Shown piece after piece: positions 2,679 to 26,141 of a stretch of 42,151 nt of DNA (its first letter is position 1; the number at the start of each line of letters is the position of its first letter). The position numbers and the translations under genes were made by a program. This DNA is from a virus. The stretch is from IMG/VR virus record IMGVR_UViG_3300045966_000102, positions 1-42,151 of that record; one strand, 5' to 3'. Under the pieces are notes generated by a model, which saw nothing but the letters and a program-made list of their open reading frames with translations, was not told the origin of the DNA and ran no database searches.

Positions 2679-2695
2679 AGAGAACCAGCGCGATA

Positions 2696-2704
2696 TGTTA
2701 CAAT
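2696..2704 (+). promoter_or_regulatory. Candidate extended -10 promoter for the homing endonuclease
   Basis: TGT followed by TACAAT (2699-2704) matches an extended -10 element (TGn-TATAAT, one mismatch). The region 17-18 bases upstream (TTAGAG) is a poor -35, as is usual for extended -10 promoters. It lies just after the stop of the 2301 gene and about 85 bases before the start of the GIY-YIG gene. This is inferred from sequence only. Confidence 0.4.
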
Positions 2705-2721
2705 TAGGACACATAACGAGC

Positions 2722-2755
2722 GAATCCCGGCGATGCGCCAACACCACCGGGATTC
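2722..2755 (+). other. Inverted repeat / leader hairpin before the GIY-YIG gene
   Basis: GAATCCCGG (2722-2730) pairs perfectly with CCGGGATTC (2747-2755) across a 16-base loop. There is no T-run after it, so it is not a typical intrinsic terminator. It sits between the candidate promoter and the AGGAG ribosome site (2776-2780). Hairpins that limit translation are known in leaders of T4 homing endonucleases such as I-TevI; a similar role here is a guess. Confidence 0.5.
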
Positions 2756-2790
2756 TCGCCATACCGCCATGCATCAGGAGTGCACGCGCC

Positions 2791-3597
2791 ATGACTATTG
2801 TCCATGATAGCATATCGCCCTTTTCTCGCAGCACCGCGCAAGGAATCTACCGCATTGTCCACCGCGCTACAGACCGCTGGTACATTGGAAGCGCGGTCAA
2901 CTTCGCTGCGCGCATACAACTCCATCTGCGACGGTTGCGAGCAGGGAGGCATCACAGCCCAAAGCTCCAAGCCGCCTGGACCATGTACGGTGAGGATGCT
3001 TTTGCTTTTGAGCTAATCGAAGCCGTCCCCGACCGCGATCTACTCAAGGCGCGCGAACAGTTCTACCTGGACACACTCAAGCCGCATTTCAACATCGCGC
3101 TTAGTGTCACGGCTCCGATGCTTGGAAGAAAACAAAGCGCGCGCTTTGCGGCTGTACAAGCTGCCCGTCCGCATCCTTCCCCCTCCCCTGAACTGCGGGC
3201 ACGCATCAGCGCTACGTTGACGGGACGCAAGAAAGGCCCTGTCCCTCTTGAACGACGCCAACGCATTGCCGCCACACTCAAAGGCCATACGGCGAGCGCT
3301 GAGACGCGCGCCAAAATATCCGCCAATCGCAAGGGATTTACACACACTGAGGAAGCTAAGGCCCGGATACGCGCTTCATCCATTGAGCGTGCACGCTTTT
3401 TTGTTCCTGCCCTTGCTGGAGAAGACAACCCACAGGCCAAGCTCTCATGGAGCACAGTACGGACAATCCGTAGCCGATACCGCCCCGGCGTCGTGACACT
3501 CAAGCAGCTTGCCCATGAATATGGCGTGGATGGGACGACGATCAGCCTAATCGTGCGCGGGAAAATCTGGAAAGAGGCAATGCTATGCTCAGACTAG
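2791..3597 (+). CDS. GIY-YIG homing endonuclease with NUMOD3 repeats and C-terminal HTH
   Basis: This 268-residue protein is started at ATG 2791, with AGGAG at 2776-2780; the in-frame ATG 2695 lacks a ribosome site and would read through the leader hairpin. Residues 18-20 are GIY and 31-33 are YIG. A conserved Arg follows in NFAARIQLH, and E89 (AREQFYLDTL) is the expected catalytic Glu. After the nuclease domain come two or three NUMOD3-type DNA-binding repeats (about 128-195: SPELRARISATLTGR, LERRQRIAATLKGH, SAETRAKISANRKG). A helix-turn-helix follows near 218-264 (LKQLAHEYGVDGTTISLIVRGKIW). This layout is that of free-standing phage homing endonucleases, which cut an empty allele and are copied in by repair. 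No intron boundary is evident around it. Its end overlaps the start of the next gene by 13 bases. Confidence 0.9.
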   Translation: MTIVHDSISPFSRSTAQGIYRIVHRATDRWYIGSAVNFAARIQLHLRRLRAGRHHSPKLQAAWTMYGEDAFAFELIEAVPDRDLLKAREQFYLDTLKPHFNIALSVTAPMLGRKQSARFAAVQAARPHPSPSPELRARISATLTGRKKGPVPLERRQRIAATLKGHTASAETRAKISANRKGFTHTEEAKARIRASSIERARFFVPALAGEDNPQAKLSWSTVRTIRSRYRPGVVTLKQLAHEYGVDGTTISLIVRGKIWKEAMLCSD

Positions 3598-4059: not shown

Positions 4060-7020
4060 ATGCGTTTTGTGCTCACCCTCAACCGACTGCGCAGCACCGC
4101 CGACCTGCTCAAAGCCTACGTGCGTGGCCACCGGCGCCACCTGCCCAGCGGGGAAACGGTGTGGGTGGAGCCCTATCACACCTCCGTAGTGGCCCAGCCA
4201 CAACTGACGCTTTTCCACCCCAGGCCCGCCCCCAAAGAGGAGCCCCCCACCCCCGCGCCCCCACGCCCCGCGCTGGAGCCTGCCCGGCCCATGCGCCAGC
4301 AGTCCCTGTTCGACCTGCTCCGCCCGGCGCCGAAGCCGGAAGCACAACCCGAGCCCGCGCCCCGGCCCGTGATCCCGCCGCGCGTGGAACCCGTGGTGCC
4401 GAAGCCCCCAGCCCCGGCCCTGGTGCTCACCCCGCCCGCCGCTGAGCCCGCGCCCGAGCCACGGCCACCGACCACCCAGGACGTGCAGCGTGTGGCGCCT
4501 GTGCACCCGGATGCCAAGCCCCACCCCACCCTTATGGACTGCATTGAAAGCCTGGCTGGCCAGTGTGATGGCGCCCGCACAAAAGACGAGGTGGGCTTTG
4601 CAGGCCCCGATGCCATGTGGGGCAAAATGCTGGCCATGTCTGGGAACGACCGCGACTGGACCGACGACGAACGCCGCGCCGCCTGGGAACGACTGCGCAA
4701 GTACAAGGGGCAACTGGCCCGCAACGGCATTGACTTTGACGCCATCCCCGTGCCCCCACCGATGGACCGCCCAGACGACCGGCCCCGGCGCCAGGCTGCG
4801 ACCACCACAACGACGAGCACCCCGGAGGACGGCCCTGGTGTGTGGCGCTGGATTGACGGGCACGCCGTCTTTATCCCGGAGCATGAGCGGCAGAGCTACG
4901 ACAAAGCCGACATGAGCGCGTCGACCGTGACCGCCTTCCCTGGCCATATCGGGCTGCACTTTAAGTATGACCCGCGCCTTGTGGCCCTGGTCAAGACTGT
5001 CAGAGGCGCCCGCTGGAACCCGATCACTAAAAGCTGGAGCGTCCCCATGGAGCGCTTCCAGGAGGTGATCGACCTGGCCAACGTCGACATGACCCAGAAG
5101 GCCATGGCCGCCTGGCAGGAACACCAGGAGCGCGCTGTAGCCCGCGAGCAGGCCCAGGCCGAAGCCAACGCCCTCCTCAGTGAAGCAGACCGTGGTTTTA
5201 CCCAGGACATTTTGATGCTCACCCCGGAGCAGCTCGCCCAGGTGGACACGCTCGACAACTGGACCCGTGGCACCTTCCTTCCGTCCAATCTGGGGAAGTC
5301 ACGCGACCGCCTGAGCCCCAAGCAGTTACGCATTGTCGACCGGGCACAGGAGGAGCTAGACAACTGGCTCAATGCCAACCCGCACCAGCGCGCCATGTTC
5401 GCCCAGGCGTGGCGTGACCGGGAGGGCCAGCTCAAGGCCGCTGCACAGGCCAAGACTAACGAACTCGACGCCCTCAGCCATGACCAGGACATCAGCAATT
5501 TTCAAATGCCCGCTGGCTTTAATCCGGCTGTGCTCACCGGAGGGGAACTCTACCCGCACCAGAAGCAAGGCGTGGCGTGGCTCATGCGCGCCAAGGCAGG
5601 CATTCTCGCCTTTGCTACCGCGCTGGGCAAAACCAACACGGCTGTGACCGCCGCCGCCAAGCTCCAGGAAGAGGGCAAGGCCAAACGCTGCCTGTTTGTG
5701 GTCCCCAGCGCCCGCAAAATTGGCACGATACGGGACATCAAGGCGTTATTCCCTGGCAAAAAGGTGGTACTGGTCGACGGCACCCCGGCTGAGCGTGCCC
5801 GGCAGTACCGCGACGCGGAAACGGCGGACTTTGTGGTAGCAGGCTACGGGCTTATCCAGCGCGAACCGGAGAAGCTCCATGGCTCAGGCTTTGACATTGT
5901 GATCAATGACGAAGCCGTCCGCCTCAAGGGCAAAAGCAGCCAGACCGCCAAGAACAGCAAGGAGTTTTTCAGCGCGCCGTATACCTGGGACCTCAGCGCT
6001 ACCCCGATCCCCAACAGCCCGGAGGACCTCTACCAGCTCATGCAACGGCTGCAGCCAACCCTCTTTGGCTCCCGTGCCCAATTCTTGCGCCAGCATTGCC
6101 GCACAGACCGCGTCTATGCACAAGGCCGCATGATCACTCGCATAACCGGCTACCAGAACCTGGCCTATACCCGCAGTGTGGTAGCGCCCTATATCCTGGC
6201 CAGGACCTGGCAGAGCCCGGACGTGCAGATTCCCATGCCCGAGCGGCGCAACGCCCGGCAGACGCTCGACCTGCACCCGGCGCAGTCCGTCTACTACGAA
6301 GCCGCGCGGACTGGCGCCCTGGAAGCCCTCAAGCGTGTGAACAACCCTGGCCAGATGACACGGGAGGAGCGCGCCAACATCCTGACCAACATCTTGCGCA
6401 TGGAGCAAGTGGCCATCACCCCGGAGCTGGTCGACCCGTCCTACAAGGGGGAAGCGCCCAAGGTGGCAGAAGCCGTGCAGATGGTCAAGGACCACTTTGG
6501 CGCCGGACACACCAAGGCGTGCGTGATCTATTCCCACTACCTGCCCGTGATCGACATCCTGCAGCGGGAACTCCAGAAGGAAGGCTTGACGAACGGCGAC
6601 ATTGCCACCATCAAGGGTGGCATGACGCCTGAGAAAATCCAGGACATTGTTGACGGGATCAATACCGGCAAGCACAAGGTCCTGATAGCGTCGGACGCCG
6701 CCGCCGAAGGGTTGAACTTGCAGCACAACTCGCAGATGCTCTTGCACATGGACACGCCCTGGCGCCCGGACATCTTAGAGCAACGAGAAGGCCGCATCTA
6801 CCGGCCTGGCCAGACGGCTGACGTGGTGATGATGCGCCTTATGACCAACACCTCTGTGGAGCAACACAAGGACAACCTGGTCAAGCGCAAGGCTGGCGCC
6901 CAGCGCGCGATTGTGCACGGGGAGAGCCCCGCCGATGATCCCGAGATGAGCTACGAGGACTTTTTAGCACTCGTTGGCGCCACCGACAGCGAGAAGAGAG
7001 GCATGCGCCATGCAGCTTGA
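4060..7020 (+). CDS. SNF2-family DNA helicase/ATPase with N-terminal KGHxR module
   Basis: This 986-residue protein begins with a basic module (AYVRGHRRHLPSGETVWVEPY, then QLTLF) related to the KGHWR module of the next giant gene. A Pro-rich linker follows to about residue 150. Next comes a small helical domain (GFAGPDAMWGKMLAMS...AAWERLRKYKGQL) of a kind seen before phage helicases, and a HARP-like segment (HFKYDPRLVALVKTVRGARWNPITKSWSVP). The SNF2 core has Walker A ATALGKT (about 519-525), motif II NDEA (D617-E618, an altered DEAH box), SATPIPN, motif V ASDAAAEGLNLQ and motif VI QREGRIYRPGQ (about 907-917). Such enzymes move along or remodel duplex DNA with ATP. A nuclease domain is absent. 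Its position beside the MuF gene fits polyvalent-protein-type anti-defence cargo, which is inference. Its stop overlaps the next start. Confidence 0.88.
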   Translation: MRFVLTLNRLRSTADLLKAYVRGHRRHLPSGETVWVEPYHTSVVAQPQLTLFHPRPAPKEEPPTPAPPRPALEPARPMRQQSLFDLLRPAPKPEAQPEPAPRPVIPPRVEPVVPKPPAPALVLTPPAAEPAPEPRPPTTQDVQRVAPVHPDAKPHPTLMDCIESLAGQCDGARTKDEVGFAGPDAMWGKMLAMSGNDRDWTDDERRAAWERLRKYKGQLARNGIDFDAIPVPPPMDRPDDRPRRQAATTTTTSTPEDGPGVWRWIDGHAVFIPEHERQSYDKADMSASTVTAFPGHIGLHFKYDPRLVALVKTVRGARWNPITKSWSVPMERFQEVIDLANVDMTQKAMAAWQEHQERAVAREQAQAEANALLSEADRGFTQDILMLTPEQLAQVDTLDNWTRGTFLPSNLGKSRDRLSPKQLRIVDRAQEELDNWLNANPHQRAMFAQAWRDREGQLKAAAQAKTNELDALSHDQDISNFQMPAGFNPAVLTGGELYPHQKQGVAWLMRAKAGILAFATALGKTNTAVTAAAKLQEEGKAKRCLFVVPSARKIGTIRDIKALFPGKKVVLVDGTPAERARQYRDAETADFVVAGYGLIQREPEKLHGSGFDIVINDEAVRLKGKSSQTAKNSKEFFSAPYTWDLSATPIPNSPEDLYQLMQRLQPTLFGSRAQFLRQHCRTDRVYAQGRMITRITGYQNLAYTRSVVAPYILARTWQSPDVQIPMPERRNARQTLDLHPAQSVYYEAARTGALEALKRVNNPGQMTREERANILTNILRMEQVAITPELVDPSYKGEAPKVAEAVQMVKDHFGAGHTKACVIYSHYLPVIDILQRELQKEGLTNGDIATIKGGMTPEKIQDIVDGINTGKHKVLIASDAAAEGLNLQHNSQMLLHMDTPWRPDILEQREGRIYRPGQTADVVMMRLMTNTSVEQHKDNLVKRKAGAQRAIVHGESPADDPEMSYEDFLALVGATDSEKRGMRHAA

Positions 7021-7297
7021 ACGCCCCTGGACCCGCTTACGCCTGGAGGAAGAACTGACGCGCCTGGCCAACCCCGCCGCGCGCGCGGACGCCCAGGCCG
7101 ATGGCAGCGCCCCCGTGCTGTGTATCGGTATCCTGGACGCCTGCAAACGCTATCACGTTTTCCGGCCCTGGTGGTTTGAGCAGTGGGCACGCCAGATACA
7201 CGACCAGGGCACCGCCAGCTTACGGCCCAGGGAGGAGGACCTCCCGGCCAACACCATGACCCCTGAAGCCCGGCGCCAGCTAGGCATGGAGGACTAG
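7010..7297 (+). CDS. Small protein of unknown function between two giant genes (95 aa)
   Basis: ATG 7010 overlaps the end of the SNF2 gene and has GAGAGG upstream; the longer frame from 6974 would lie inside the helicase. The sequence (LERPWTRLRLEEELTRLANP ... VLCIGILDACKRYHVFRPWWFEQWARQI) is predicted helical, with an aromatic FRPWWFEQW patch. I do not recognise it. It is directly coupled to the next gene: its TAG ends at 7297 and the ATG follows at 7298. Confidence 0.65.
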   Translation: MQLERPWTRLRLEEELTRLANPAARADAQADGSAPVLCIGILDACKRYHVFRPWWFEQWARQIHDQGTASLRPREEDLPANTMTPEARRQLGMED

Positions 7298-10200
7298 ATG
7301 CTGCAGTTTGTACTCCTCCTCAACAAGGCCCACGTCAAAGGCCACTGGCGGACCACGCCCACTGGCCAGCGCGTCTATGTCTCACCCCACGAACGCCAGG
7401 ACCAGGAAGGGTACGACCCCTCACAGCTTCCCCTGTTCGGCGCACCCGCTGCCCGGCCACCGGAGCCAGCCCCACCGCCGAAGCCAGAACCAGAGCCCGA
7501 ACCGGAACCGGAGCCAGTACCCACGCCAGAGCCCGAGCCCGAACCGGAACCCGTGCAGGCTGAGACCACACCCGCGACGATCCCGGAGTACGTCAAGGAC
7601 GCCGTGAAGCTCAACGCCGAGCGTATCCATTACTTCAATGAGGAAGTGGAGCGACTACGCAAGCTAGGGCAGCGCTTTGGCAGTCCAGGCCGCTATGAGT
7701 ACGAGTACCGCACCGAGCATGAGCACCAATTTGACGCGAACGTCGACAAGCTCAAATACATTGAGGGACTGGCTGAAAAGAACGGTTTTAGCTTAGAGCA
7801 GCTCTATGCCCATGTGGAGGGTGGACGCCCGGAGAAAATCCCGTGGAGCATGGCCGCCAGCGCGTGGGGACGCCCCAGAGAGCCCAAGACCACGCCGGAG
7901 CCCACACCCCCACCGGCGCCCGCACCAGAGCCCGAGCCCACAGCCACCACACCGGAGCCCTGGCAGATGACGCGCCGGGAGTTTCGACACGCGGAGAATG
8001 CGCCGAAGGTCCAGGCGATCCAGGCCGCCATCCGGGCTGGCAAGCGGATCACGGCAGTGACGCAGCTACGAGTGACGCCGCTCACATCCCCCGAGCATAT
8101 CCGCCTGACCAGTACCGGGCATGTGCAGACACGCGAACGGACCACCTGGGTCAATATGACGGACGACATGGTGGACACACTCGCCGCCCAGGCCGGGATG
8201 AAGCTCCCGGACTTCATGGAGAAGGTCTACCACCGCGCAGAGGTAGCGCAGGCCCTCAAGGAGGGGAAGCCTGTCCCGCCCGAGGTGTTAGCCGAGTACC
8301 CCGAGCTGAGCAGCCAGGAGGACGAGGAACCGGAGGAAGCCCCACCGGCAATACAACATCGCCCCCTCACTGAGGATGCCATCCATAATTGGGACGCTCC
8401 CTATATCCAAAAACAATATGGCGAGCATCCCGAGGAAATCCGCCAGGCGGCCATGCAAGCCATGCGGCGCCACCATCAAAAAGGCACAAGCGCCCGCGAG
8501 GAAGCGCAAGCGCTCAATGCGCAGTTTGGCCTCACGAAGGAACCAGAGCCCACCCCCACGCCGGAGCCGGTCGACACCACCACTGCCCAGCTTGACCAGG
8601 CCGAGCACGATCTAGGGGACCTGGAGGGCGACGTAGCCAGCACCGAGCGTGCGCACACCGCCGACACCGAAGACGAGCAGGACGACGACGCCGAGGGCGA
8701 CGGCGACGAGGGAGAGCAGACTTTCAGCCTGATCACCGGCAGGACCTACCCGCTGCGCCGTGACCTGGTGAGTCTGGGTGCGCGCTGGCATGCCGATGAG
8801 AAGGGCTACATTGTGCCCACCGGCAAGGCAGAACAGGTAGAAGCCTACGCCCGCAGCAAGGGGCTCACCGTGGGGAAGGTCGACCTGCCCGCCGAAGACT
8901 ACCACCGCGAGAAGCTCACCGGCGAAGCCCTCCGCGCCCACCGCCAGGCCGGACTCGACAAGAAAATCACCCGCTGGCGGAGCCAGGCCGCGCGCCTGGA
9001 GAAACAGGCTGCAGCCCTGGAGGCACGGCTCAAGCCCTACGATGATATGCAATTCTGGACGGAGCCCCTGAAGCCCGACCATTACAGCTATAACCGGCAT
9101 CGCAACTTGCGCGAGCGACTCAGGGCCATGATGGACAAGCGTATGGGCATGCTCCGCGACGCCCACGCACTCAGGCAGAAGGCGGACGGCTGGGACCGGG
9201 CTGGCGCCCAGATAGCAGGCGACCGGGAGCGCCAGCGCCAGGCCCAGCGCGAGATGGTCAGCTCCCAGGTGACTGTAGGGAGCCGCATCCATGACGCGAT
9301 CTATGGCAAGGGGACCGTGGTCAAGGTCAACCCCAAGACGTTCACCGTGCGCTATGACAACGGACACACCTCTGCCACCGACAAGAGCCACGCCATGCCA
9401 CTAGGGGAGACTGTGCCCCTGGCAGAGCTGAAAGAGCAGACCAGGCCGAAGTACAAGAAGGGCGACACCGTCCGCTTTAACTCGTTCGGACAGGATAGAG
9501 TGGGGACCATTACGAGCGTAGGCCCACGCTCCTACAGTATTCGTGTCCATGGCGCCGTCCAGACCAGCCCGCTCAAGGTCGACCATCAGCGCGTATTAGG
9601 CCCGGACACCACCCCGGAGCCCGCGCCCGCAGCCGCGCCAAGTGCTCCGCTCAGGCGTGGCCAGTTTGTGCGGTTTACCCATGGGGTACTGAGCAGTACA
9701 CCCCGCTATGGCACCATTACGAACGTAGGACCGGACACCTATACCATTCGCGCGATGGACGGTGGACGGATACTGGAAGTGAACCATAAAGATGTGATGG
9801 CCAAGGCCCGCAACACGCCCCGCCTGGTGCTCCTGCTCAACAAGGCCCACGTCAAGGGCCACTGGCGCACCATCCCGACTGGCCAGCGTGTGTACGTGGC
9901 AGCCCATGAGCGCCAGGACGACCCGCACGCCTGGTCCAGTCAGATGCCCCTGTTTGGCGCCCCGCGTGGGACCCTGGTCACCGTGCACCAGCTCACCCCG
10001 CAAGAGGCACCCGCGTTCGCCTCACCCGAAGCCCCCGCTGTCACGGCCATGCCCGTGAGCGTACCAGCCCCCGTGCGCCCGACGCCGAAAGAGGCGCCAC
10101 ACCTGCCCATGCCCGAAAAGGCCAGCAAACACCCGCGCCGTGCCGAGTCTGCCCCCGCTGAGACCTACGCACTGCGCCCAGGCGGACGGTTTAACTTTAC

Positions 10201-13200
10201 CTCGCAGGAAATCGACCAGATTGTGACCATGATCCAGGAGTACCAGAAGGGCGCCGACCATCCGAGTCTGCGACTCCGCCCGCAAGTCAAGGAGTATGCG
10301 CTAGCCTATAACCTCCTGGAGCAAGCAGACAGGAAGAAGCGCCCCACGTTCAACTTCCGGGGACGCTTTCAGCCCATGCACGACCTCCCCCCGGAAGCCC
10401 TCTGGCGCATTGTGGAGCCCATGCTTGAAGGCCAAAGAAGCCGTGGTGCGTCGATCACCAGAGACCCGCGCTGGACCACCCTGGACATTTACCCGGTAGG
10501 CCATCGCATCCACCGCAACAGCAACATGAAAGAAGTGCCTGGCGCCGAGGGCGAACCTAGCACCTGGGTAGAACAACCGGAGCTGACCGAGCGCAGCGAA
10601 CAGCATGCGATGGAAGCCCAGGCCGAGGTATTAGGGAAGCTCGCCCTGCATCAATACCTGTACTTCCAGCGTGGTGGCAGTATCTGGGACGTGAGCCGCC
10701 ATGAGCGCTACAGCCCACCCATCCAGAAGGCTCACACCTTCACCCTGGGGAAAGCCCGCGTCAAGGGCCACTGGCGCATGCTAGAGCAGGGTCCCGTGTA
10801 CGTGCACACCTACCACCGCCCGGACCGGCCCGGAGGGGTAGCTGAACCGGCGCAGCAGCTTGGCCTGTTTGGTGCACCTGTGAGCAGCCTACGCACCACG
10901 CAACCGGCACCGCTCAAGCATACCCCGGAGCCACCCGCGCCCGTGGTCCCCGAGCGGGCACCCGTGCAGATCGCCAAGCCGGAGCCCAGCCCGCCGCCGA
11001 AGCCGTCCCCGTTTCTGAGCTTTCCCAACGACACGGGCACGCCGACCCCCGAGCAACGCCAGGATGCTATCGACACCGTGTGGAACATGGAGGCACCGCT
11101 GCGCGCCTTTGAGCGCTTCTTTACCCGGAAGGATGCCCCACCCTCCGCCATGCGCACGGCTCTCTTGCTCTACCAGGGCGCCAGGCCCGCCGTGGGCGAA
11201 CGCTTCCGGGAGCGCCTGACCACCCTCACCGACACGACCACGCGCCGCAGTCTGCATGCCGTGGTCGACTTCGCCGCCCAGGACCTGACCAACGTAGGCC
11301 AGCACCTGATAGCCATGGCCATGAAGTACGGCATGCGTGACACCGACCTGCCCGCTGGGCTAGAGCGGGATGCGTTCCAGCGCTACCAGCACAACAACCC
11401 CTATGCGCGGGGGACCCCGCTCCCGCCTGACGTGACCCCGGCGCCCGCCCCAGCACCGGAGCCAGCCCTGACGTTTCCGGCTGACGACAAGCGCCCAAGC
11501 AAAAAGGAGCGCGAACAGGCATACAATGCCGTCTGGGCAGTTGAAGGCCCGCTGCATGACTTTGAGAGCTATTTTACTGGCCCCAATGCCCCGAACACCC
11601 CCTGGCGTGGTGCGCTCAACTTCTACCGTGGCGCCCGCCCTGGGACCGTAGGGACGCACTACCGCGCCGCTGTCCAGGGCATCCACAGCCGCCAGAACGC
11701 CCACCCGACGCCCACCCGTGCCAGCCTGCACCGGGCTGTTGAGCGGGCTCAGCAGGAGATGGAGTCTGTGGGCAAGAAGTACATGGCCGCCATGCGTGGC
11801 ATGGGCATGGACACCCCGGACGTGCCCCCTGGACCACTCCGCGACACGTTTACGCAGTACGCCCGCTTGCTCGACGCCGAGCCCGCCGCTGAGCAGACGC
11901 CCGCTGTCCCACCGGCACCCCCCAGCTACCGCAGTCTGAGCCTCAAGCTCGACCGCACCCAGGACATCCCGGTCACCAGCCTGTATGCGCGCACGGCCAA
12001 GGAGGTAGCCGGTATCTTTGAAGAGATGCGCCAGGGCGAGCGCGAGAAACTCATGGCCGTGCACACCGATGCAGACGGCAGAATCCGCAGCCTGGAATGT
12101 ATCAGCATGGGGACCCTCAACTCTAGCCCTGGGACCATCCGGGAGGTACTCAAGGCCGCCGTGGTCCAGGGCACAAGCGGTATGTGGCTCATTCACAACC
12201 ACCCCTCTGGCGCGTCGGACCCGAGCGAAGACGACAAGGTTCTGACCCGCAAGGTCAACGACTATGGCAAGCGCTTAGGTATCACCCTGCACGGCCATGT
12301 CGTCATAGGCGAGCACGGCTACCACGCCCTGAACCCGGAGGGCCACACCAACGGCGAGAGCGCCTACCCGACCGGCACCGAGACCGAAGGCAAAGTGCCC
12401 ATGGTTGCGTTGCGGCAACACCGCGAAGCCGAACCGATGTTACAGGGCAAGCAGCTCAAGAACTGGCATGAGGTAGCCGACATGGGGAAGCAGCTCCTAC
12501 GCGGGGGAGCCCACCAGACCTATGTCGTGCTCACGGACACGCGGCTGCGTGTCAATGCCGCCATCCCCATCAAGAGCACCGGCGAGGGGCAGGCCCAGCA
12601 GGACGCCCTCAATGAAGTGCTCCGGCAAGCCATCCTGCACAATGCCCATGCGGTGACCCTGGTCTCTGACGTGGAGAAACGCGAGCGCTTTTTTGGGTTT
12701 AGCAAGCGCCTGCATCAGGCCCTGGACCGAACCGGCATGCACTTGATGGACGCCGTGCACCTACGCGGCGATACCTACGCCTCTGCACGCGGAGAGGGCA
12801 TGATTAAAGCCCTGGTGATCGACCTCAGCAAGGCCCGCAAGCTGCACGGACGGCGCCGCTGGCAGGGGATGCAGCTCAGTATTGAGAACCGCAAGGGGAG
12901 CATCCGACGTGGGCACGATCACGACGGCAAGCCGTGGGCGAACAAGATGCAGCACCCCTATGGCTACATCAAGGGGACGGTGGGTATGGACGGCGCCCAG
13001 ATTGACTGCTTTGTAGGGCCACACCCCGGCGCCCCGCATGTCTATGTGGTGACCACCCGCAAAGCCCCGGACTTCCAGGTAGCCGATGAGCAGAAGTGCT
13101 TTATTGGCTTCACCTCCGCGAAGAAGGCCAAGCAAGCGTTTCTCACGCACTACGATGACCCGCGTCATTTCGGCAACATGCTGGAGATGCCCGTAGAGGA

Positions 13201-13258
13201 ATTTAAGGCCAAGGCCAAGGCCACCATGGAGAACCCTGGTGCGATCCAGGCCGTATAG
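7298..13258 (+). CDS. Giant polyvalent-type protein: three KGHWR modules, SH3-like repeats, RadC/JAB and pyrophosphatase-like domains
   Basis: This is a 1986-residue mosaic. KGHWR...TGQRVYV modules start near residues 9, 848 and 1148, the first two followed by PLFGAP and the third by GLFGAP, then Pro/Glu-rich linkers. After the first come an acidic linker, a small domain with a DUF5710-like look (TYPLRRDLVSLGARWHADEKGYIVP), a DUF3560-like helical stretch and three SH3/KOW-like units sharing GTxxxVxPxxxxxR. After the third come two copies of a ~125-residue helical unit (about 1242-1365 and 1393-1525). From about 1543 there is a RadC-like JAB domain with the full H-x-H-x7-S-x2-D metal motif (H1633, H1635, S1643, D1646). 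Residues from about 1846 (HPYGYIKGTVGMDGAQIDCFVGP) match the pyrophosphatase-like domain described in phage polyvalent proteins. A role as virion-borne counter-defence is inferred. SD is GGAGG. Confidence 0.82.
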   Translation: MLQFVLLLNKAHVKGHWRTTPTGQRVYVSPHERQDQEGYDPSQLPLFGAPAARPPEPAPPPKPEPEPEPEPEPVPTPEPEPEPEPVQAETTPATIPEYVKDAVKLNAERIHYFNEEVERLRKLGQRFGSPGRYEYEYRTEHEHQFDANVDKLKYIEGLAEKNGFSLEQLYAHVEGGRPEKIPWSMAASAWGRPREPKTTPEPTPPPAPAPEPEPTATTPEPWQMTRREFRHAENAPKVQAIQAAIRAGKRITAVTQLRVTPLTSPEHIRLTSTGHVQTRERTTWVNMTDDMVDTLAAQAGMKLPDFMEKVYHRAEVAQALKEGKPVPPEVLAEYPELSSQEDEEPEEAPPAIQHRPLTEDAIHNWDAPYIQKQYGEHPEEIRQAAMQAMRRHHQKGTSAREEAQALNAQFGLTKEPEPTPTPEPVDTTTAQLDQAEHDLGDLEGDVASTERAHTADTEDEQDDDAEGDGDEGEQTFSLITGRTYPLRRDLVSLGARWHADEKGYIVPTGKAEQVEAYARSKGLTVGKVDLPAEDYHREKLTGEALRAHRQAGLDKKITRWRSQAARLEKQAAALEARLKPYDDMQFWTEPLKPDHYSYNRHRNLRERLRAMMDKRMGMLRDAHALRQKADGWDRAGAQIAGDRERQRQAQREMVSSQVTVGSRIHDAIYGKGTVVKVNPKTFTVRYDNGHTSATDKSHAMPLGETVPLAELKEQTRPKYKKGDTVRFNSFGQDRVGTITSVGPRSYSIRVHGAVQTSPLKVDHQRVLGPDTTPEPAPAAAPSAPLRRGQFVRFTHGVLSSTPRYGTITNVGPDTYTIRAMDGGRILEVNHKDVMAKARNTPRLVLLLNKAHVKGHWRTIPTGQRVYVAAHERQDDPHAWSSQMPLFGAPRGTLVTVHQLTPQEAPAFASPEAPAVTAMPVSVPAPVRPTPKEAPHLPMPEKASKHPRRAESAPAETYALRPGGRFNFTSQEIDQIVTMIQEYQKGADHPSLRLRPQVKEYALAYNLLEQADRKKRPTFNFRGRFQPMHDLPPEALWRIVEPMLEGQRSRGASITRDPRWTTLDIYPVGHRIHRNSNMKEVPGAEGEPSTWVEQPELTERSEQHAMEAQAEVLGKLALHQYLYFQRGGSIWDVSRHERYSPPIQKAHTFTLGKARVKGHWRMLEQGPVYVHTYHRPDRPGGVAEPAQQLGLFGAPVSSLRTTQPAPLKHTPEPPAPVVPERAPVQIAKPEPSPPPKPSPFLSFPNDTGTPTPEQRQDAIDTVWNMEAPLRAFERFFTRKDAPPSAMRTALLLYQGARPAVGERFRERLTTLTDTTTRRSLHAVVDFAAQDLTNVGQHLIAMAMKYGMRDTDLPAGLERDAFQRYQHNNPYARGTPLPPDVTPAPAPAPEPALTFPADDKRPSKKEREQAYNAVWAVEGPLHDFESYFTGPNAPNTPWRGALNFYRGARPGTVGTHYRAAVQGIHSRQNAHPTPTRASLHRAVERAQQEMESVGKKYMAAMRGMGMDTPDVPPGPLRDTFTQYARLLDAEPAAEQTPAVPPAPPSYRSLSLKLDRTQDIPVTSLYARTAKEVAGIFEEMRQGEREKLMAVHTDADGRIRSLECISMGTLNSSPGTIREVLKAAVVQGTSGMWLIHNHPSGASDPSEDDKVLTRKVNDYGKRLGITLHGHVVIGEHGYHALNPEGHTNGESAYPTGTETEGKVPMVALRQHREAEPMLQGKQLKNWHEVADMGKQLLRGGAHQTYVVLTDTRLRVNAAIPIKSTGEGQAQQDALNEVLRQAILHNAHAVTLVSDVEKRERFFGFSKRLHQALDRTGMHLMDAVHLRGDTYASARGEGMIKALVIDLSKARKLHGRRRWQGMQLSIENRKGSIRRGHDHDGKPWANKMQHPYGYIKGTVGMDGAQIDCFVGPHPGAPHVYVVTTRKAPDFQVADEQKCFIGFTSAKKAKQAFLTHYDDPRHFGNMLEMPVEEFKAKAKATMENPGAIQAV
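7325..7450 (+). repeat. KGHWR module, copy 1 (coding repeat)
   Basis: This encodes NKAHVKGHWRTTPTGQRVYV...HERQ followed by QLPLFGAP. Copy 2 is at about 9838-9963 and is nearly identical in protein and closely similar in DNA. Copy 3 is at about 10745-10880 (RVKGHWRMLEQGPVYV ... GLFGAP). A divergent fourth copy opens the 986-aa gene at about 4105-4220. Confidence 0.85.
9838..9963 (+). repeat. KGHWR module, copy 2 (coding repeat)
   Basis: This encodes NKAHVKGHWRTIPTGQRVYV...HERQ then QMPLFGAP, in the middle of the 1986-aa protein. It follows an SH3-like domain and precedes a new Pro-rich linker, as if marking the N-terminus of a fused gene. Confidence 0.85.
10745..10880 (+). repeat. KGHWR module, copy 3 (coding repeat)
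   Basis: This encodes GKARVKGHWRMLEQGPVYV...YHRP then QQLGLFGAP. It is more diverged than copies 1 and 2 but keeps the same order of elements and is again followed by a Pro-rich linker. Confidence 0.75.
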
Positions 13259-13268: not shown

Positions 13269-16200
13269 ATGGTCACCCGCACAGCCCCTACGCCCCTGCC
13301 CGCCGTGGTGTATCTGCACGGCAGCGACCGCCCGCACCCGTGCTACGTGCGCCTCATGCCCCGCCTGGCCAAGGCCAAGGACATCCCGCCTGGTGCGCGC
13401 TGGATTACCGTGCACCCCAACGGCATGGAAGAGAAGGGTGTCCCGATTCTCATAGAGCCCCGAGGCGACGGCTCGTGGAGCGTCACGGCTGGCGCCGGTG
13501 GCAAGCTCAACTATCTCCGCCTGACCAACGTCAAGAGCGAAGCCGAGTACAGACAGACCGCCAGAGAGCGTGCCGAGCAACGCCGGGAAGCCCAGAAGGA
13601 GCGCGAAGCCATCACGCCGCCCGAAGTCAAAAAAGCCCAGCGCGAAGCCCGAACCGCCGTGCAGCAACAGGCCCGCATCGCGCAACGCGCCTTGATAGAG
13701 CGCGTCAGGGCGACCCTGGGTGGGGTGAGTGCGGACCTGCCCCCGGAGCGCCTGGCTGGCCTGACCCTGGGCGCCCAGAGTCTCATAGCATCCCGCCATC
13801 ACCGCAAGCAGCTCAGCGAAGCCCGCGCACAGTTGGCGGAGCAGAAGCGGACCCTGCTCCTTGACGCCGACGCGCGCGCCGCCATTGGTATGGGCGACCT
13901 GCCCCTGCATGGCAAGACGGACGCCGGGCTCTTTGGTGGTCCCACCCTGGGGCTCACCGACCTGGAGCCCGAACCGACCGGCGCCAGCCGTGGCCCCAGC
14001 CGCCGCGAGAAGGCCACCGCCAACATCATTGACGACCTGCAAAAGCTCGACGTAGACGCCACCAAGCAGGCCCTGGAGCAGCTTGACGAGCAGGAGCCCG
14101 ACGCCGACACCGAGCGCGCCCGCGCCAAGTTACAGGCCCAACTGGACGCGCGCGCCCTCCTCGATACCAGCCCGGAGAATCACAAGGCCATTGTGGACCT
14201 GGTGCTCACCCCGGACAAGCAGGCCATGATTGACGACACCGTGGCTGCCCTCAACGCTGAAGGCCGGGACGAGGAAGCCGAGCGCTTACAAAACGGCTCA
14301 GCCGGGTTGCGTGCCTTGCATGCCGAAGTACGCCAGGCGAAGCAGGCCGGACTGACCGACACCGACCAGACCGCTGTGCTGAAGCAGCCCGCTGCAGACA
14401 TTGTCGACATGCTCAAGCAAGAGAAAGAGGTTGCCGCCGCTGAGCAGGACGCCCGCCGCATGAAGAAGACCATAGAGACGGGTGGGGTGGTCGACACACA
14501 AAAAGCCTTCCGGGTGATGACCTCAGAAGCCCTGGACAAGCAGGTGATCAGCGACTTGCAGGACCAGATACGCGCGGACCTGGCACACAGCATGCTGGAA
14601 CACGTCAAGGGCAAGGAAGAGACGGCCTACCGGGCTCCTATTGCCGCTGGCATGCAGAGCGCCATAGATAACTTGTCCCTGGCAGCATTAGGGAGTGCCA
14701 TGCTCAGCCGGGATGTGATCGACTTTCTAGGCCCCAAAAGCTCCGCGCAACTGCTGGCCTGGCACTTGCACAACACCATCCCTGGCGAGATGGAGCGCAT
14801 CCGGGAAGGCGTGGAAGCGCACCACGCCGCAACGGAGAGCAAGCTGGCGGAGGAAGCCCTCAAGGCCGCAGACCCGCTGCTCAAAGAAGCGGAGCGCATG
14901 GCCCAGACCATGACCGATGAGCCGAGCGACCTCAAGGCCGCCCTGGAACAGAACCGCCAGCGCCTGGACCTCCTGGAGCAGGCCCGTGGGCTCATTGGCA
15001 CCACCCTGGGACGCCTGGAAGGCCAGGCCCTCCTTGGGGAAGCGCTGCGCCGCCCGCCTGTGGAGCACCTGGAGGTGAGTCTAGGAACCGTGGGCAATGC
15101 CGACGTACTCATGGCCGCGCGTGCGTTAGGGCTCACCCCGGACGACTTCAGCATGGACCTGGTGGGAGGGACGCGCCTCATGACGATCCACCCGGACGCC
15201 CTCCCCAAGCTGCTCAGTCAGACCCCCAAGGACGCCGTGCAACGCGCGCGCACGGTAGCCGACATCAAGGCCGGGAAGCACGACGAAGCCGACTGGCTCC
15301 CGGACGGCATTGTTGCCAGGCCCCTCACCGAGTTTACAGACCCCGTGCGCCAGGCCCACTATGCCACCACACCGCTGGAACTCACCGAGCAGATGAGTGA
15401 GCCCGATGCAGAGCACGCCATCCAGGCCCACGTTGCCAGCCGTGCCTACCTCGACGGCGCCGAAGATTTTAGAGACATACGCTCTGACCTGCTCAGTGCC
15501 GAGCGCCAGGCCACTATTCCCCCGGCCTTGCTGCCCACCTATCAGCGCATTGTGGAGGATGCTTTCCCCCTGGAGACCCCGCGCGCGCGGGAGCTGACGC
15601 ACGAAATGGCCGGGATACGCCAGCAGCTAGAGGACCTGGAAACCCCCTCGATGTTTGGCCCACCCGCTGAGGGCGACCCCGACGCCTTGAAAAGCCGCCT
15701 GGCCGCCGCTGAGCGCGAACACGCCGAAGAGAGCCTGCCCGAGAAGCAAGAGGCAGCCCTGCACAGCCGCGCCGCGCAGTGGGTCAAGCCCTACCTGGAC
15801 GCGCACCCAGAAATGACACCCCTCGATCACCAGAGTATTCCCGACACTGAAGACACGCGCCGCGCCGTGTTCCGCGCCCTGGCCAGTGTGCCAGAGGGGA
15901 GCGTGGCCTTTAAGAAGGTGGGGGAGCTAGGGGACCACGCCAGCACCAGCATGCTGCAGGAACACTTCTGGAAGCACCACAGCCCCATAAGCAAGGATGA
16001 AGCCCTAGAAGCCCGCCAGCAGCTCAAGGACCTGCCCAACCCTGGCAGAGACTGGCGCCAGTGGCAGGCCCAGCATGGCACGGGAGACGCCGCCTACCAT
16101 GCCATCCAGGCCCATCTGCAAAAAAAGGAAGAGGAGGAAGCTGGAGGGGGACTCTTTGGAGCGGTAGCAGAGCCCAACCTCATGGCCGCTGGCAAGCTCG

Positions 16201-23016: not shown

Positions 23017-23035
23017 GTGCCCGGAGACGGACCCC

Positions 23036-23845
23036 ATGGCCGCAGTGCTCCCGGAAACCACGCGCCACTTCCTGGTGGACTTTGGCCTGGTCAAGGCCGA
23101 ACCCCTCACCCCAGGCCAGCCCTGGATGATCTACATCCAGGCATCCACCCCTGGTGTGGACTACGACGGGGAGCGCGTGCTGCCCCAGGCCATGCAGGAC
23201 GCCCGGCCTTATTTCCTGGCCAATGGGCGTATCAGCTACGAGCACATCACCCCGGACACCCGACATGACCCCAGCGTGCTGATAGGCGAACCCAGGGAGA
23301 TGACCATCACCCCCGATGGCCGGACCCTGGTCAAAGCCGAACTGTACCAGCGCGTCAAGAAGGCCCAGGAAGTCTGGGACATCTTGCAGAGCGGGGGAAA
23401 GATGAAGGCCAGTGTGGGTGGCTCAATCCTGCGCCGTCAGCAGGACGTGACCGGCACCCCCGTGGTCACCAAGCTATTCCTCAACCACATCGCCCTGACC
23501 CCCTGGCCCGTCAACGATGACACCAATGTCCAGCTCACGCCTTACGACTCCTTCATGAAAGCGCTGGGGTACCGCGTCCATAAGGCCCTGGGTGCGACCA
23601 CAGGCACCAGTGCCCAGCCGCTGGTCATGCAGGACCTGGAAGGTCAACGCCAACGCCTCACCCCTGCCTTTGCCACGCGCTGGCAGGCCCTCACCGACAT
23701 CATTCAGCAACTCAGCCAGGAGCGCGGCAAAGCCCTGTCGGACGACGACGCCCGGCAGTGTGCCCTGGCCGTGCTTATCCGCCGTGGAGAAGCGCGGCAG
23801 GCATATGTCGCCGCCAGTGGGAACCGGCTCCCCGGCAGCGTCTAG
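23036..23845 (+). CDS. Prohead (capsid maturation) protease
   Basis: This 269-residue protein starts at ATG 23036, with GGAG ten bases upstream; a TTG at 23015 lies in the terminator U-tract. It has the herpes/HK97-type prohead protease layout: DYDGERVLPQAM, a candidate catalytic His in ISYEHITP (H70), and a candidate nucleophile Ser in MKASVGGSI (S126). The C-terminal part (about 180-269) is helical and probably binds capsid or scaffold. It cleaves scaffold and capsid termini during head maturation. Position directly before the scaffold and capsid genes supports this. It is the first gene of the right structural operon. Confidence 0.78.
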   Translation: MAAVLPETTRHFLVDFGLVKAEPLTPGQPWMIYIQASTPGVDYDGERVLPQAMQDARPYFLANGRISYEHITPDTRHDPSVLIGEPREMTITPDGRTLVKAELYQRVKKAQEVWDILQSGGKMKASVGGSILRRQQDVTGTPVVTKLFLNHIALTPWPVNDDTNVQLTPYDSFMKALGYRVHKALGATTGTSAQPLVMQDLEGQRQRLTPAFATRWQALTDIIQQLSQERGKALSDDDARQCALAVLIRRGEARQAYVAASGNRLPGSV

Positions 23846-23855
23846 GAGGACAGGT

Positions 23856-24629
23856 ATGGCTTTCACCAGTAACACGCTCGAAGACGACCTGAAGGCGTTG
23901 GAGGGCAAGCTCAACGGGTCCCAGGAGGACGATGGCGACCTCAAGAAGGCCCTGGCAGATGTGGCCAAGGGTGCTATCGGGCTGGCCACCAAAACCCTCA
24001 GCAAGGCCCGTGGGGACGATGACGACATGGGCGCCGATGAGGACGAAGGCGACGACGACCGCCCCGGCACCGACGACGACGACACCGAAGAGTGGATACA
24101 GAACCTGCTCCAGAACAAGGGAGGGGAGCCCGCCCAGAAATCCCGCCGCCAGGAGTGGGGAGGGGAGGGACTCTACAAGGCCCTCAGTGCCGACAGCGAT
24201 GTAGGCGCCGTCGACGTGGGAGGGTACCTGCAGGAAGAGTTAGCGATCCGCGAGCGTGACCGCAAAGAACTCCGCCGCTTGCGCAAGCAAAACGGCCTAC
24301 TCCTGAAAGCCATCACCGACCTGCACGCCTCAAGCACCGCCAACAGCCGCGCCCAGCAGCGTGTCAACGCTGTGCTGGCCAAGGGGCTCATGAAGCTCCT
24401 CGACGCCACCGACGACTTGAACAGCCAGCCTGCCACGGGCTCCCGCTTCGCCCTGATGGAGAAGTCTGTCAGCGCCGCCAGGGACCACCTCCGTACTCAA
24501 GGAGGGCAGGAGGTGAAGTACACCAAGGACCACGCCGTCCGCCTGCTCCAGAAAGGCATCATCACCCAGGAACAGCACCGCATCTGGAAGACCACCAACA
24601 TGCTGCCACCCGGCATTGACGCCGCCTAA
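23856..24629 (+). CDS. Scaffold-like head assembly protein
   Basis: ATG 23856 follows AGGAGG; the longer open frame to 23592 lies inside the protease gene. The protein (257 aa) is highly charged: an acidic stretch (DDDDMGADEDEGDDD) near residues 54-75, then a coiled-coil region (EELAIRERDRKELRRLRKQNGLLLKAI) and an Ala/Gln-rich helical tail. Low-complexity, coiled-coil composition and its place between protease and capsid are typical of scaffolding proteins. Sequence identity to a named scaffold family is not evident, so the assignment rests on context. Confidence 0.65.
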   Translation: MAFTSNTLEDDLKALEGKLNGSQEDDGDLKKALADVAKGAIGLATKTLSKARGDDDDMGADEDEGDDDRPGTDDDDTEEWIQNLLQNKGGEPAQKSRRQEWGGEGLYKALSADSDVGAVDVGGYLQEELAIRERDRKELRRLRKQNGLLLKAITDLHASSTANSRAQQRVNAVLAKGLMKLLDATDDLNSQPATGSRFALMEKSVSAARDHLRTQGGQEVKYTKDHAVRLLQKGIITQEQHRIWKTTNMLPPGIDAA

Positions 24630-24656: not shown

Positions 24657-26141
24657 GTGATAGGTTTTGACTCATTGGTAAGCTCTGGGATGCTCCAGGA
24701 CGAACTGCTCAAGGCGCTGGCGTCGACAGCAAGCGCGGGCACGGACGCATCCCCATTAGTCAAAGAGGACTTGGAGGTAGAAGCCCACACCCAACTGTGG
24801 CTAGAGACCGACCCGGTTGAACTGGTCATATTGAAACACTTGCCACACGTCCAGGCATTCAGCGTGCTGCATGAGTTTGACCAGATCATAGGCTATGGCG
24901 CGCGTGGGCATGACGGTTTTTACGGGGAGAACAGCCTACCCGCAGAAGCCGCGATCCAGTCCAGACGCAAGACCGTCAATATCCGTCTGATGGGTGACAT
25001 CTCTAGCGTGTTCGCGCTGGCCAGCTTCCAGACGCCGATCCAGGCGTTAGGACAGTCCAACCTGGTCGACGAGAACATGGCCAGCACCCGGCTGGACCTG
25101 CTCCACAAGATGGCCGTGGCGGTCTACAACGCCGACGATGGCAGCACCACCCACACGCTGCGCTTTAAGGGACTGCGCCAGCAGATACTAGAGGGCACCA
25201 GCCCGTCCAGTGCTGCGCCGTTCACGATCAACCCGGATTACATCATTGACCTGCGTGGTGCGAAGCTCGACCCGCCAGAAATTAGAAAGCGTGCCCGCCA
25301 GGTACGGGAGCGCTTTGGGGCTATGCGCTGGCTGTACATGGCGCCGTCCGTCTCAGAGTTTCTGGAAGAGAGCCTGGACCCCGCCGAGCGCTTGATGATC
25401 CCGCGCACCCCAGGGGACGCGGTGATTCTGGGGCAAAACATTGGTGGCATGAACACCGCTGGCGGCATTACGCGCTTTGCGGTGGACAACACCCTCACGA
25501 GCAGCCTGTACATGGGCGCTGCCCCACTTGTGGCGGAGACCAACGCCCCGGCGCCGCTCCCGGCTGGCAACATTGCTGCCCCGGTTGTCGCCGCTGACGC
25601 TGCCTCTCTGTGGGGAGCCGCTGACGCCGACGCCGCCGTGGTCTATGACATTACGGCCCTCAATGCCGCTGGCGAATCGACCGCCACGCGCGTGGGTCCT
25701 ATCGCCGTCGCCGCTGGCCAGAAGGTCACCATTGCGATCACCCCGCGCGCCGCAGACACCTCGTACCGCATCTACCGGGGAGACAGCACCCTCAACCCGC
25801 CGCTGTTTATCCGGGAAATCAAAGGCACCGGCAATACCACCGCATTCAATTTTGTCGACCTCAATGAACGCATCCCAGGCACCACGGACGCCTTTGGTCT
25901 CAACATCGCCAGTGCCAACAGTGACGCCATGCGCATGAACGACATGAGCCGCGTCACCTTGCAGAACCCGCCCCGCCCGCGCAATACCGCGTCGCTGGTC
26001 ACACTAGGCCCATGGATGGGCATTTTTGAACTGGCCCATATTCTCCATACCGCCAGCCGTGACCTGCTCTTTTCGGCCTTTACCCCACAGATCACACACC
26101 CCTATCAAAACGTGGTGTGGATCAATGTAGGCGACCGCTAG
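24657..26141 (+). CDS. Major capsid protein with an inserted Ig/FN3-like domain
   Basis: This 494-residue protein has a GTG start at 24657 with AGAGGAG upstream. The first ~300 residues and the last ~75 (ASLVTLGPWMGIFELAHILHTASRDLLFSAFTPQITHPYQNVVWINVG) look like a split capsid fold. Between them, about residues 305-412, is an Ig/fibronectin-III-like domain (VVYDITALNAAGESTATRVGPIAV, then TSYRIYRGDST) that would be displayed on the capsid surface or stabilise it. Gene order (protease, scaffold, this gene, neck genes) and length support the major capsid assignment. Confidence 0.78.
   Translation: MIGFDSLVSSGMLQDELLKALASTASAGTDASPLVKEDLEVEAHTQLWLETDPVELVILKHLPHVQAFSVLHEFDQIIGYGARGHDGFYGENSLPAEAAIQSRRKTVNIRLMGDISSVFALASFQTPIQALGQSNLVDENMASTRLDLLHKMAVAVYNADDGSTTHTLRFKGLRQQILEGTSPSSAAPFTINPDYIIDLRGAKLDPPEIRKRARQVRERFGAMRWLYMAPSVSEFLEESLDPAERLMIPRTPGDAVILGQNIGGMNTAGGITRFAVDNTLTSSLYMGAAPLVAETNAPAPLPAGNIAAPVVAADAASLWGAADADAAVVYDITALNAAGESTATRVGPIAVAAGQKVTIAITPRAADTSYRIYRGDSTLNPPLFIREIKGTGNTTAFNFVDLNERIPGTTDAFGLNIASANSDAMRMNDMSRVTLQNPPRPRNTASLVTLGPWMGIFELAHILHTASRDLLFSAFTPQITHPYQNVVWINVGDR

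Follow-up and report, generated by a model that had tools for sequence, protein, structure and literature searches.

A portable N-terminal element with a putative lysine-specific cleavage site, predicted to load unrelated proteins into the heads of a contractile-tailed phage lineage

Introduction

In bacteriophage T4, a short conserved N-terminal element, the capsid targeting sequence (CTS), is found on diverse injected internal proteins and is trimmed by the prohead protease (PMC3012670, PMC9024508). In phage P1, the 30 N-terminal residues of the polyvalent methyltransferase-helicase DarB are enough to bring a reporter into the capsid, and neither a consensus nor another common signal was found among the Dar proteins (PMC9024508). 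The present work deals with a protein module found four times in a viral record of 42,151 nucleotides (IMG/VR virus record IMGVR_UViG_3300045966_000102, positions 1 to 42,151; hereafter the window), in two adjacent giant proteins. The module is probably a portable N-terminal element for head loading and maturation, common to unrelated cargo.

Two further systems are of relevance. As described in the parts of the SPN3US report considered here, a single prohead protease cuts several head and ejection proteins at A-X-E (PMC10052503); unlike the process proposed here, that of SPN3US and phiKZ is Glu-specific and involves mostly long propeptides (111-254 residues), and no common hairpin tag is found in those parts. 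For polyvalent proteins, Iyer et al. (2017) proposed processing by a built-in zincin metallopeptidase, and listed RadC as restricted to those polyvalent proteins that belong to conjugative elements (PMC5512222).

The module resembles the T4 CTS in being one short N-terminal element common to unrelated head cargo. The residue preceding the cut (P1) is Glu for the T4 prohead protease, while here it would be Lys ([LF]xK↓[ASG], the arrow marking the putative cut); moreover, a beta-hairpin follows the site, copies also stand inside fused chains, and the packaging role is predicted from sequence. As in P1 DarB, the nearest experimental precedent, the signal would be located at the N-terminus of giant polyvalent proteins but, unlike the situation among the Dar proteins, one element is common to many cargo types. 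The motif [LFM]xK[ASG] is absent from the DarB N-terminus and from the portal and protease of P1, and is not found as an N-terminal tag on the Dar proteins. Like polyvalent proteins, the 1986-residue protein of the window joins disparate domains (DUF3560, RadC and InPase). A zincin-like metallopeptidase, common though not obligatory in polyvalent proteins, was not found in the giant proteins (Pfam, E <= 1), and, in difference from the model of Iyer et al., the prohead protease is the cutter proposed here. A literature search found no published description of a Lys-specific tag. A readable element and a matching protease consensus would allow packaged proteins and cut positions to be predicted from sequence alone for a phage lineage, giving a list of candidate injected effectors and possibly a tool to load proteins into capsids.

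The module in the window

A 45-residue query matches exactly four places in the record, the phage being contractile-tailed (a tail sheath was found), and the claim of the initial annotation that the module occurs four times in two adjacent giant proteins is thereby borne out. The first of these, a 986-residue SNF2/Helicase_C protein (tagged cargo 1; 4060..7020, +; Pfam PF00176, E 8.4e-25, and PF00271, E 3.6e-15), starts with a divergent copy (4102..4221, +; match at 4108-4182, E 1.8e-4, 44% identity) reading DLLK↓AYVRGHRRHLPSGETVWVEPYH...QLTLFHP, with a putative cut after K18. The second, a polyvalent protein of 1986 residues and putative packaged polyprotein (7298..13258, +; Pfam), starts with copy 1 (7313..7447, +; E 1.4e-30; LLLNK↓AHVKGHWR...QLPLFGAP), for which both the match and a hairpin model are available and whose putative cut falls after K10. 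Two internal copies follow in the same chain, at K849 (match at 9830-9964, E 4.9e-21, 78% identity) and K1152 (match at 10745-10879, E 1.6e-7, 57% identity), each with a Pro-rich stretch after it. The alignment of the four copies contains 14 invariant columns, including K-A, V-x-G-H-x-R, G, V-x-V and the terminal Q..LF, and copies 1 and 2 share 84% DNA identity over 93 bases.

The KGHWR core highlighted previously does recur, but it is less important than the residues immediately preceding the hairpin: each copy has [L/F/M/I/V]-x-K-[A/S/G] at its start, a feature that had been overlooked. Sequence and profile searches of Pfam, NCBIfam and the PDB found nothing that matches the module; phrog_10678, of unassigned function, matches residues 10-33 of the 1986-residue protein (E 1.7e-6). 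AlphaFold2, run with 43 natural copies, models the module core as a beta-hairpin with strands at 16-19 and 25-28; the predicted local distance difference test score (pLDDT) is about 93 at the turn, and the flanks with the Lys site and the QLPLF peptide are less certain. A second, weaker hairpin-like segment (GVWRWIDGHAVFIPEHERQ), without a Lys site, is present at residues 260-278 of the SNF2 protein (4837-4893).

The element would thus comprise a short, mostly hydrophobic leader ending in [LFMIV]-x-K-[A/S/G], which would be the cut site of the prohead protease, then a beta-hairpin (AHVKGHWR...GQRVYV...H) and, in the window, a QLxLF peptide with a Pro-rich linker ahead of the payload. The hydrophobicity of leaders such as LQFVLLLN and KPILFLK recalls a membrane or secretion signal. 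That explanation can hardly be credited, as these leaders span only 5-8 hydrophobic residues, below the usual length of a Sec signal, several others lack this character (MSEDLAK, MDLMK), and the tag is carried by DNA and nucleotide enzymes.

The third part bears on a different explanation, according to which the module mainly tethers proteins to the replisome: QLxLF would bind the host beta sliding clamp and so recruit the SNF2 and RadC/InPase proteins to phage DNA under replication, and the Lys site would be incidental. The bacterial clamp-binding consensus is QL[SD]LF, and all four window copies end in a similar peptide (QLPLF at 7424-7447, QMPLF at 9941-9964, QLGLF at 10856-10879 and QLTLF at 4201-4221), lying in the less confidently modelled tail ahead of the Pro-rich linker. 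Furthermore, QLALF follows the copy of gp49 in Bordetella phage PHB04, and, of 51 downstream regions, 5 contain QxxLF, where shuffling would predict 0.16. Most tagged relatives, including those with NUDIX cargo, nevertheless lack QxxLF after the hairpin, so clamp binding cannot be the common function; it would also leave the statistics of the Lys site and its N-terminal placement, described below, unexplained. Replisome tethering as the main role is therefore considered unlikely, although the peptide resembles a beta-clamp-binding motif and may have a second function. QASLF is also seen after the copy of another relative (L081), and LF or IF forms the C-terminus of several NUDIX cargo proteins.

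A putative lysine-specific prohead protease site

The same motif is found in the head proteins of the window. The head maturation protease (23015..23845, +; phrog_1028, E 1.3e-16) contains the sites GLVK↓AEP, TLVK↓AEL and SFMK↓ALG; an acidic scaffold-like protein (23853..24629, +) contains seven [LFM]xK[ASG] sites, with 0.7 expected; and the major capsid protein (24657..26141, +; phrog_752, E 5.7e-37) contains DELLK↓ALAST, which aligns with the annotated maturation site of Cps, its homologue in Listeria phage A511 (tblastn E 2e-7). The Cps record places the start of the mature peptide after residue 23 (...EDALK↓SFTTGYG), an end reportedly determined by N-terminal sequencing. The Lys of this site aligns with a Lys in 18/18 major capsid proteins, with Leu at P3 in 17 and Ala or Ser at P1' in all 18.

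When the portal, protease, scaffold and capsid proteins of four phages were considered together, 61 [LFM]xK[ASG] sites were counted against 11.9 +/- 3.3 after shuffling, and none of 2000 shuffles reached 61. Motif density is about eight-fold higher in head than in tail proteins (10.6 versus 1.3 per 1000 residues); the tail proteins (17,107 residues) show no depletion, with 22 sites against 22.4 shuffled, and the control motifs [LFM]x[R/E][ASG] and [LFM]xK[DEN] are not enriched in head proteins. From these data we infer that [LFMIV]-x-K-[A/S/G] is a Lys-specific cut site of the prohead protease of this lineage, and the site of the module matches the consensus obtained from the capsid, protease, scaffold and portal proteins.

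The C-terminal region of the protease and the N-terminal region of the capsid protein share a homologous substrate segment, K↓ALxAxY...GGxAL..QSL, in PHB04 (L028, 19624-20517 and 17423-18925); A511 shows it as well.

Tagged cargo in related phages

The tail sheath of the window is closest to those of Aeromonas phage ST4, Bordetella phage PHB04 and Pseudomonas phages Dolphis, Jeremy and Touem01. Diverged forms of the element are located at the N-terminus of the ST4 NUDIX protein (MDLMKAHVKGYSRKDGTYVPPHER) and of PHB04 gp49 (MSTVILFLKSHVAGYMRAGRYVKPHER...QLALFPAP). Scanning viral contigs with single sequences of the module, SNF2 and InPase yielded no more than two records, nearly identical to each other; profile searches of viral contigs gave a total of about 50 copies, mostly N-terminal and with no more than 4 per contig. 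Tagged cargo in PHB04-, ST4-, Dolphis- and fHe-Yen8-01-like phages and IMG/VR contigs includes NUDIX, HD phosphohydrolase, PBECR3-InPase, ADP-ribosyltransferase/WGR and methyltransferase-SNF2 proteins, as well as many unknowns. Non-homologous putative head cargo shares the one N-terminal element in PHB04 (gp27, gp32 and gp49) and in contigs with 2-4 copies. The claim that a short N-terminal tag precedes different payloads is thus supported. No module was detected in the examined regions of the InPase-bearing phages PB1, vB_Eco4M-7, FoX7 and Kyle.

In 53 aligned copies the hairpin comes after [LFMIV]xK[AGS], a figure that depends on the copy search pattern having required the Lys. In the PHB04 proteome, the motif lies within the first 25 residues of 7/16 head-region proteins and 4/107 others (Fisher p 4e-5). 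Among giants bearing a single tag, the N-terminal site is present in 9/9, and sites elsewhere in these nine proteins are depleted (17 versus 37 +/- 5.7; 1 of 400 shuffles), as expected of proteins that have to survive the protease. Moreover, gp129, gp130 and gp131 of Yersinia phage fHe-Yen8-01 are deposited as 'particle associated'.

Of 397 genomes sampled from a single bacterial order, two contain the full module, and it is these two that also encode this capsid protein, at a distance of about 17 kb; sampling the phylum contributed nothing beyond the seed genome. In two more genomes of the order sample, a secreted protein has a short lookalike of the hairpin, and the capsid protein gave no match. 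Similar GYxRxDGTYVxPHxR hairpins are present on Xanthomonas and Alteromonas plasmids, within small proteins that have a signal peptide, and close a zeta-toxin protein, which would fit a general-purpose unit for binding or folding, common to bacterial and phage proteins and without a part in packaging. This is a quite improbable account of the module: the lookalikes lack the [LF]xK[AGS] leader, the two genomes bearing them have no phage capsid protein, and within the order sample no full module was found apart from this capsid lineage. A hairpin by itself has no diagnostic value, since a similar one, GYxRxDGTYVxPH, is present in secreted proteins of bacteria that lack the Lys site. The Xanthomonas protein has no Pfam match. 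In small signal-peptide proteins of bacteria and plasmids (L132, L133, L034 and L036), a GYxRxDGTYVxPHY hairpin is followed by GNVNPYTG or similar.

Co-occurrence with the capsid and protease lineage, the particle label of fHe-Yen8-01 and a site resembling that of a prohead protease together point to capsid loading, as had been suggested for the module, the support being indirect; the adjacency to MuF invoked at that time is not the relevant link. We infer that tagged proteins are packaged and cut as follows. The leader, perhaps with the hairpin, would steer the cargo into the assembling prohead; while maturing the capsid protein, the scaffold and itself, the prohead protease would trim the leader, leaving AHVKGHWR as the mature start. 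Several points weigh against this reading. The copies come from phages related by descent, so that the counts are not independent, and copy 3 and that of the SNF2 protein are divergent. One of the two co-occurring genomes is the seed, and the capsid proteins of the window and A511 are only about 25% identical. Furthermore, the 'particle associated' label is broad (52/136 fHe-Yen8-01 proteins) and its link with the motif weak (p 0.037 at 40 residues, not significant at 25), and 2/10 internal copies have no second site upstream.

Giant proteins as possible capsid-processed polyproteins

The internal copies of the 1986-residue protein are preceded by a second site, forming the boundaries MAK↓ARNTPRLVLLLNK↓AHVKGHWR...QMPLFGAP (K836 and K849; 9797..9964, +; match and site list) and IQK↓AHTFTLGK↓ARVKGHWR...QLGLFGAP (K1144 and K1152; 10721..10879, +; match and site list). 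Overall, 8/10 internal copies have a second site at most 27 residues upstream, against 41/507 background windows (8%), and these second sites are often start-like (MAK-A, MTK-S, MHK-S, MKK-S), in keeping with the earlier proposal that internal copies are former N-termini left after gene fusion. A fifth start-like segment, hairpin-less, directly precedes the InPase domain (MIKALVIDLSKARK, 12800-12841): it is a double site, MIK↓ALVIDLSK↓ARK, with K1837 and K1845 (12800..12841, +; site list). In PHB04 the InPase is a separate protein, gp28, beginning VGAVVLLK↓ADA. All the putative cut sites of the 1986-residue protein fall outside its Pfam domains, namely DUF3560 (residues 553-644; 8954..9229, +; E 7.4e-8), a RadC-like JAB domain (residues 1568-1680; 11999..12337, +; E 5.9e-30) and InPase (residues 1850-1973; 12845..13216, +; E 7.3e-37). 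The arrangement of the window is not unique, because internal copies occur in other relatives (L046, L049, L050, L066, L069, L073 and L079).

These features make it possible, with the balance slightly on the side of doubt, that giant multidomain proteins are capsid-processed polyproteins, in which the tag both loads the cargo and marks Lys-specific cut sites, freeing several effectors before injection. The internal copies and the segment before InPase would be former gene starts still bearing cut sites, and the 1986-residue chain would be cut in the capsid to about four parts (residues 11-836, 850-1144, 1153-1837 and 1846-1986, the last being InPase), to be injected together with the DNA. The same start-like segments (MAK, MIK, MTK, MHK) ahead of internal copies or domains, and the separate InPase gene of PHB04, are also what neutral relics of gene fusion would leave, the tag loading an intact 1986-residue protein whose internal sites stay uncut. 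This is a doubtful though credible explanation, since the internal start-like segments keep a good protease consensus and sites elsewhere in single-tag giants are avoided (17 versus 37), a pattern suggesting that cleavage takes place at sites within an accessible linker. Such processing would escape ordinary tryptic proteomics, because cuts after Lys resemble those of trypsin.

Giants without a hairpin, located in the same gene region, have the same type of start: LFLK↓ASK in PHB04 gp25, VLLK↓ADA in gp28 and LLLK↓STK in ST4_109. The window encodes a helicase-like giant of this kind (1779 residues; 13356..18578, +; PHROG 62, E 3.8e-90), with the probable start MPRLAK↓AKDIPPGARW; its homologue is PHB04 gp25, which starts MKPILFLK↓ASKIPAGARW.

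Neighbouring genes and minor observations

Upstream of the SNF2 gene, the end of the open reading frame 1104-2288 (RTE...C.SC...PIHPNC) is MuF-like by eye. A MuF domain near the module was not detected by Pfam or PHROGs and, with no domain match backing it, the link between tag and MuF was rejected. Between the MuF-like region and the SNF2 gene there is a GIY-YIG-type homing endonuclease-like gene (2695-3597; PHROG 314, E 7e-19). About 2 kb between the 1779-residue gene and the protease gene (19500-21500) are strongly C-rich, with a GC content of 0.71 and a GC skew of about -0.39, and consist of degenerate GCC/CCTGCC-like runs without an assignable gene.

Low-scoring tblastn matches on plasmids of Paraburkholderia, Rhizobium and Rhodococcus were dismissed as chance, as was one in LCK69, on the strand opposite to the annotated gene. 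In L049 (5352-7103), a short domain ending in IYKKMGG is fused ahead of the tag and InPase; its counterpart in the window is a separate small open reading frame (2301-2678, IYKKMSG). Finally, ADP-ribosyltransferase polyvalent proteins (L027, 39423-42956; L031, 4768-8436) have a different hairpin-like start, GYYLxxGRWH, after an LxK[AS] site, and similar NGRWH segments within the chain.
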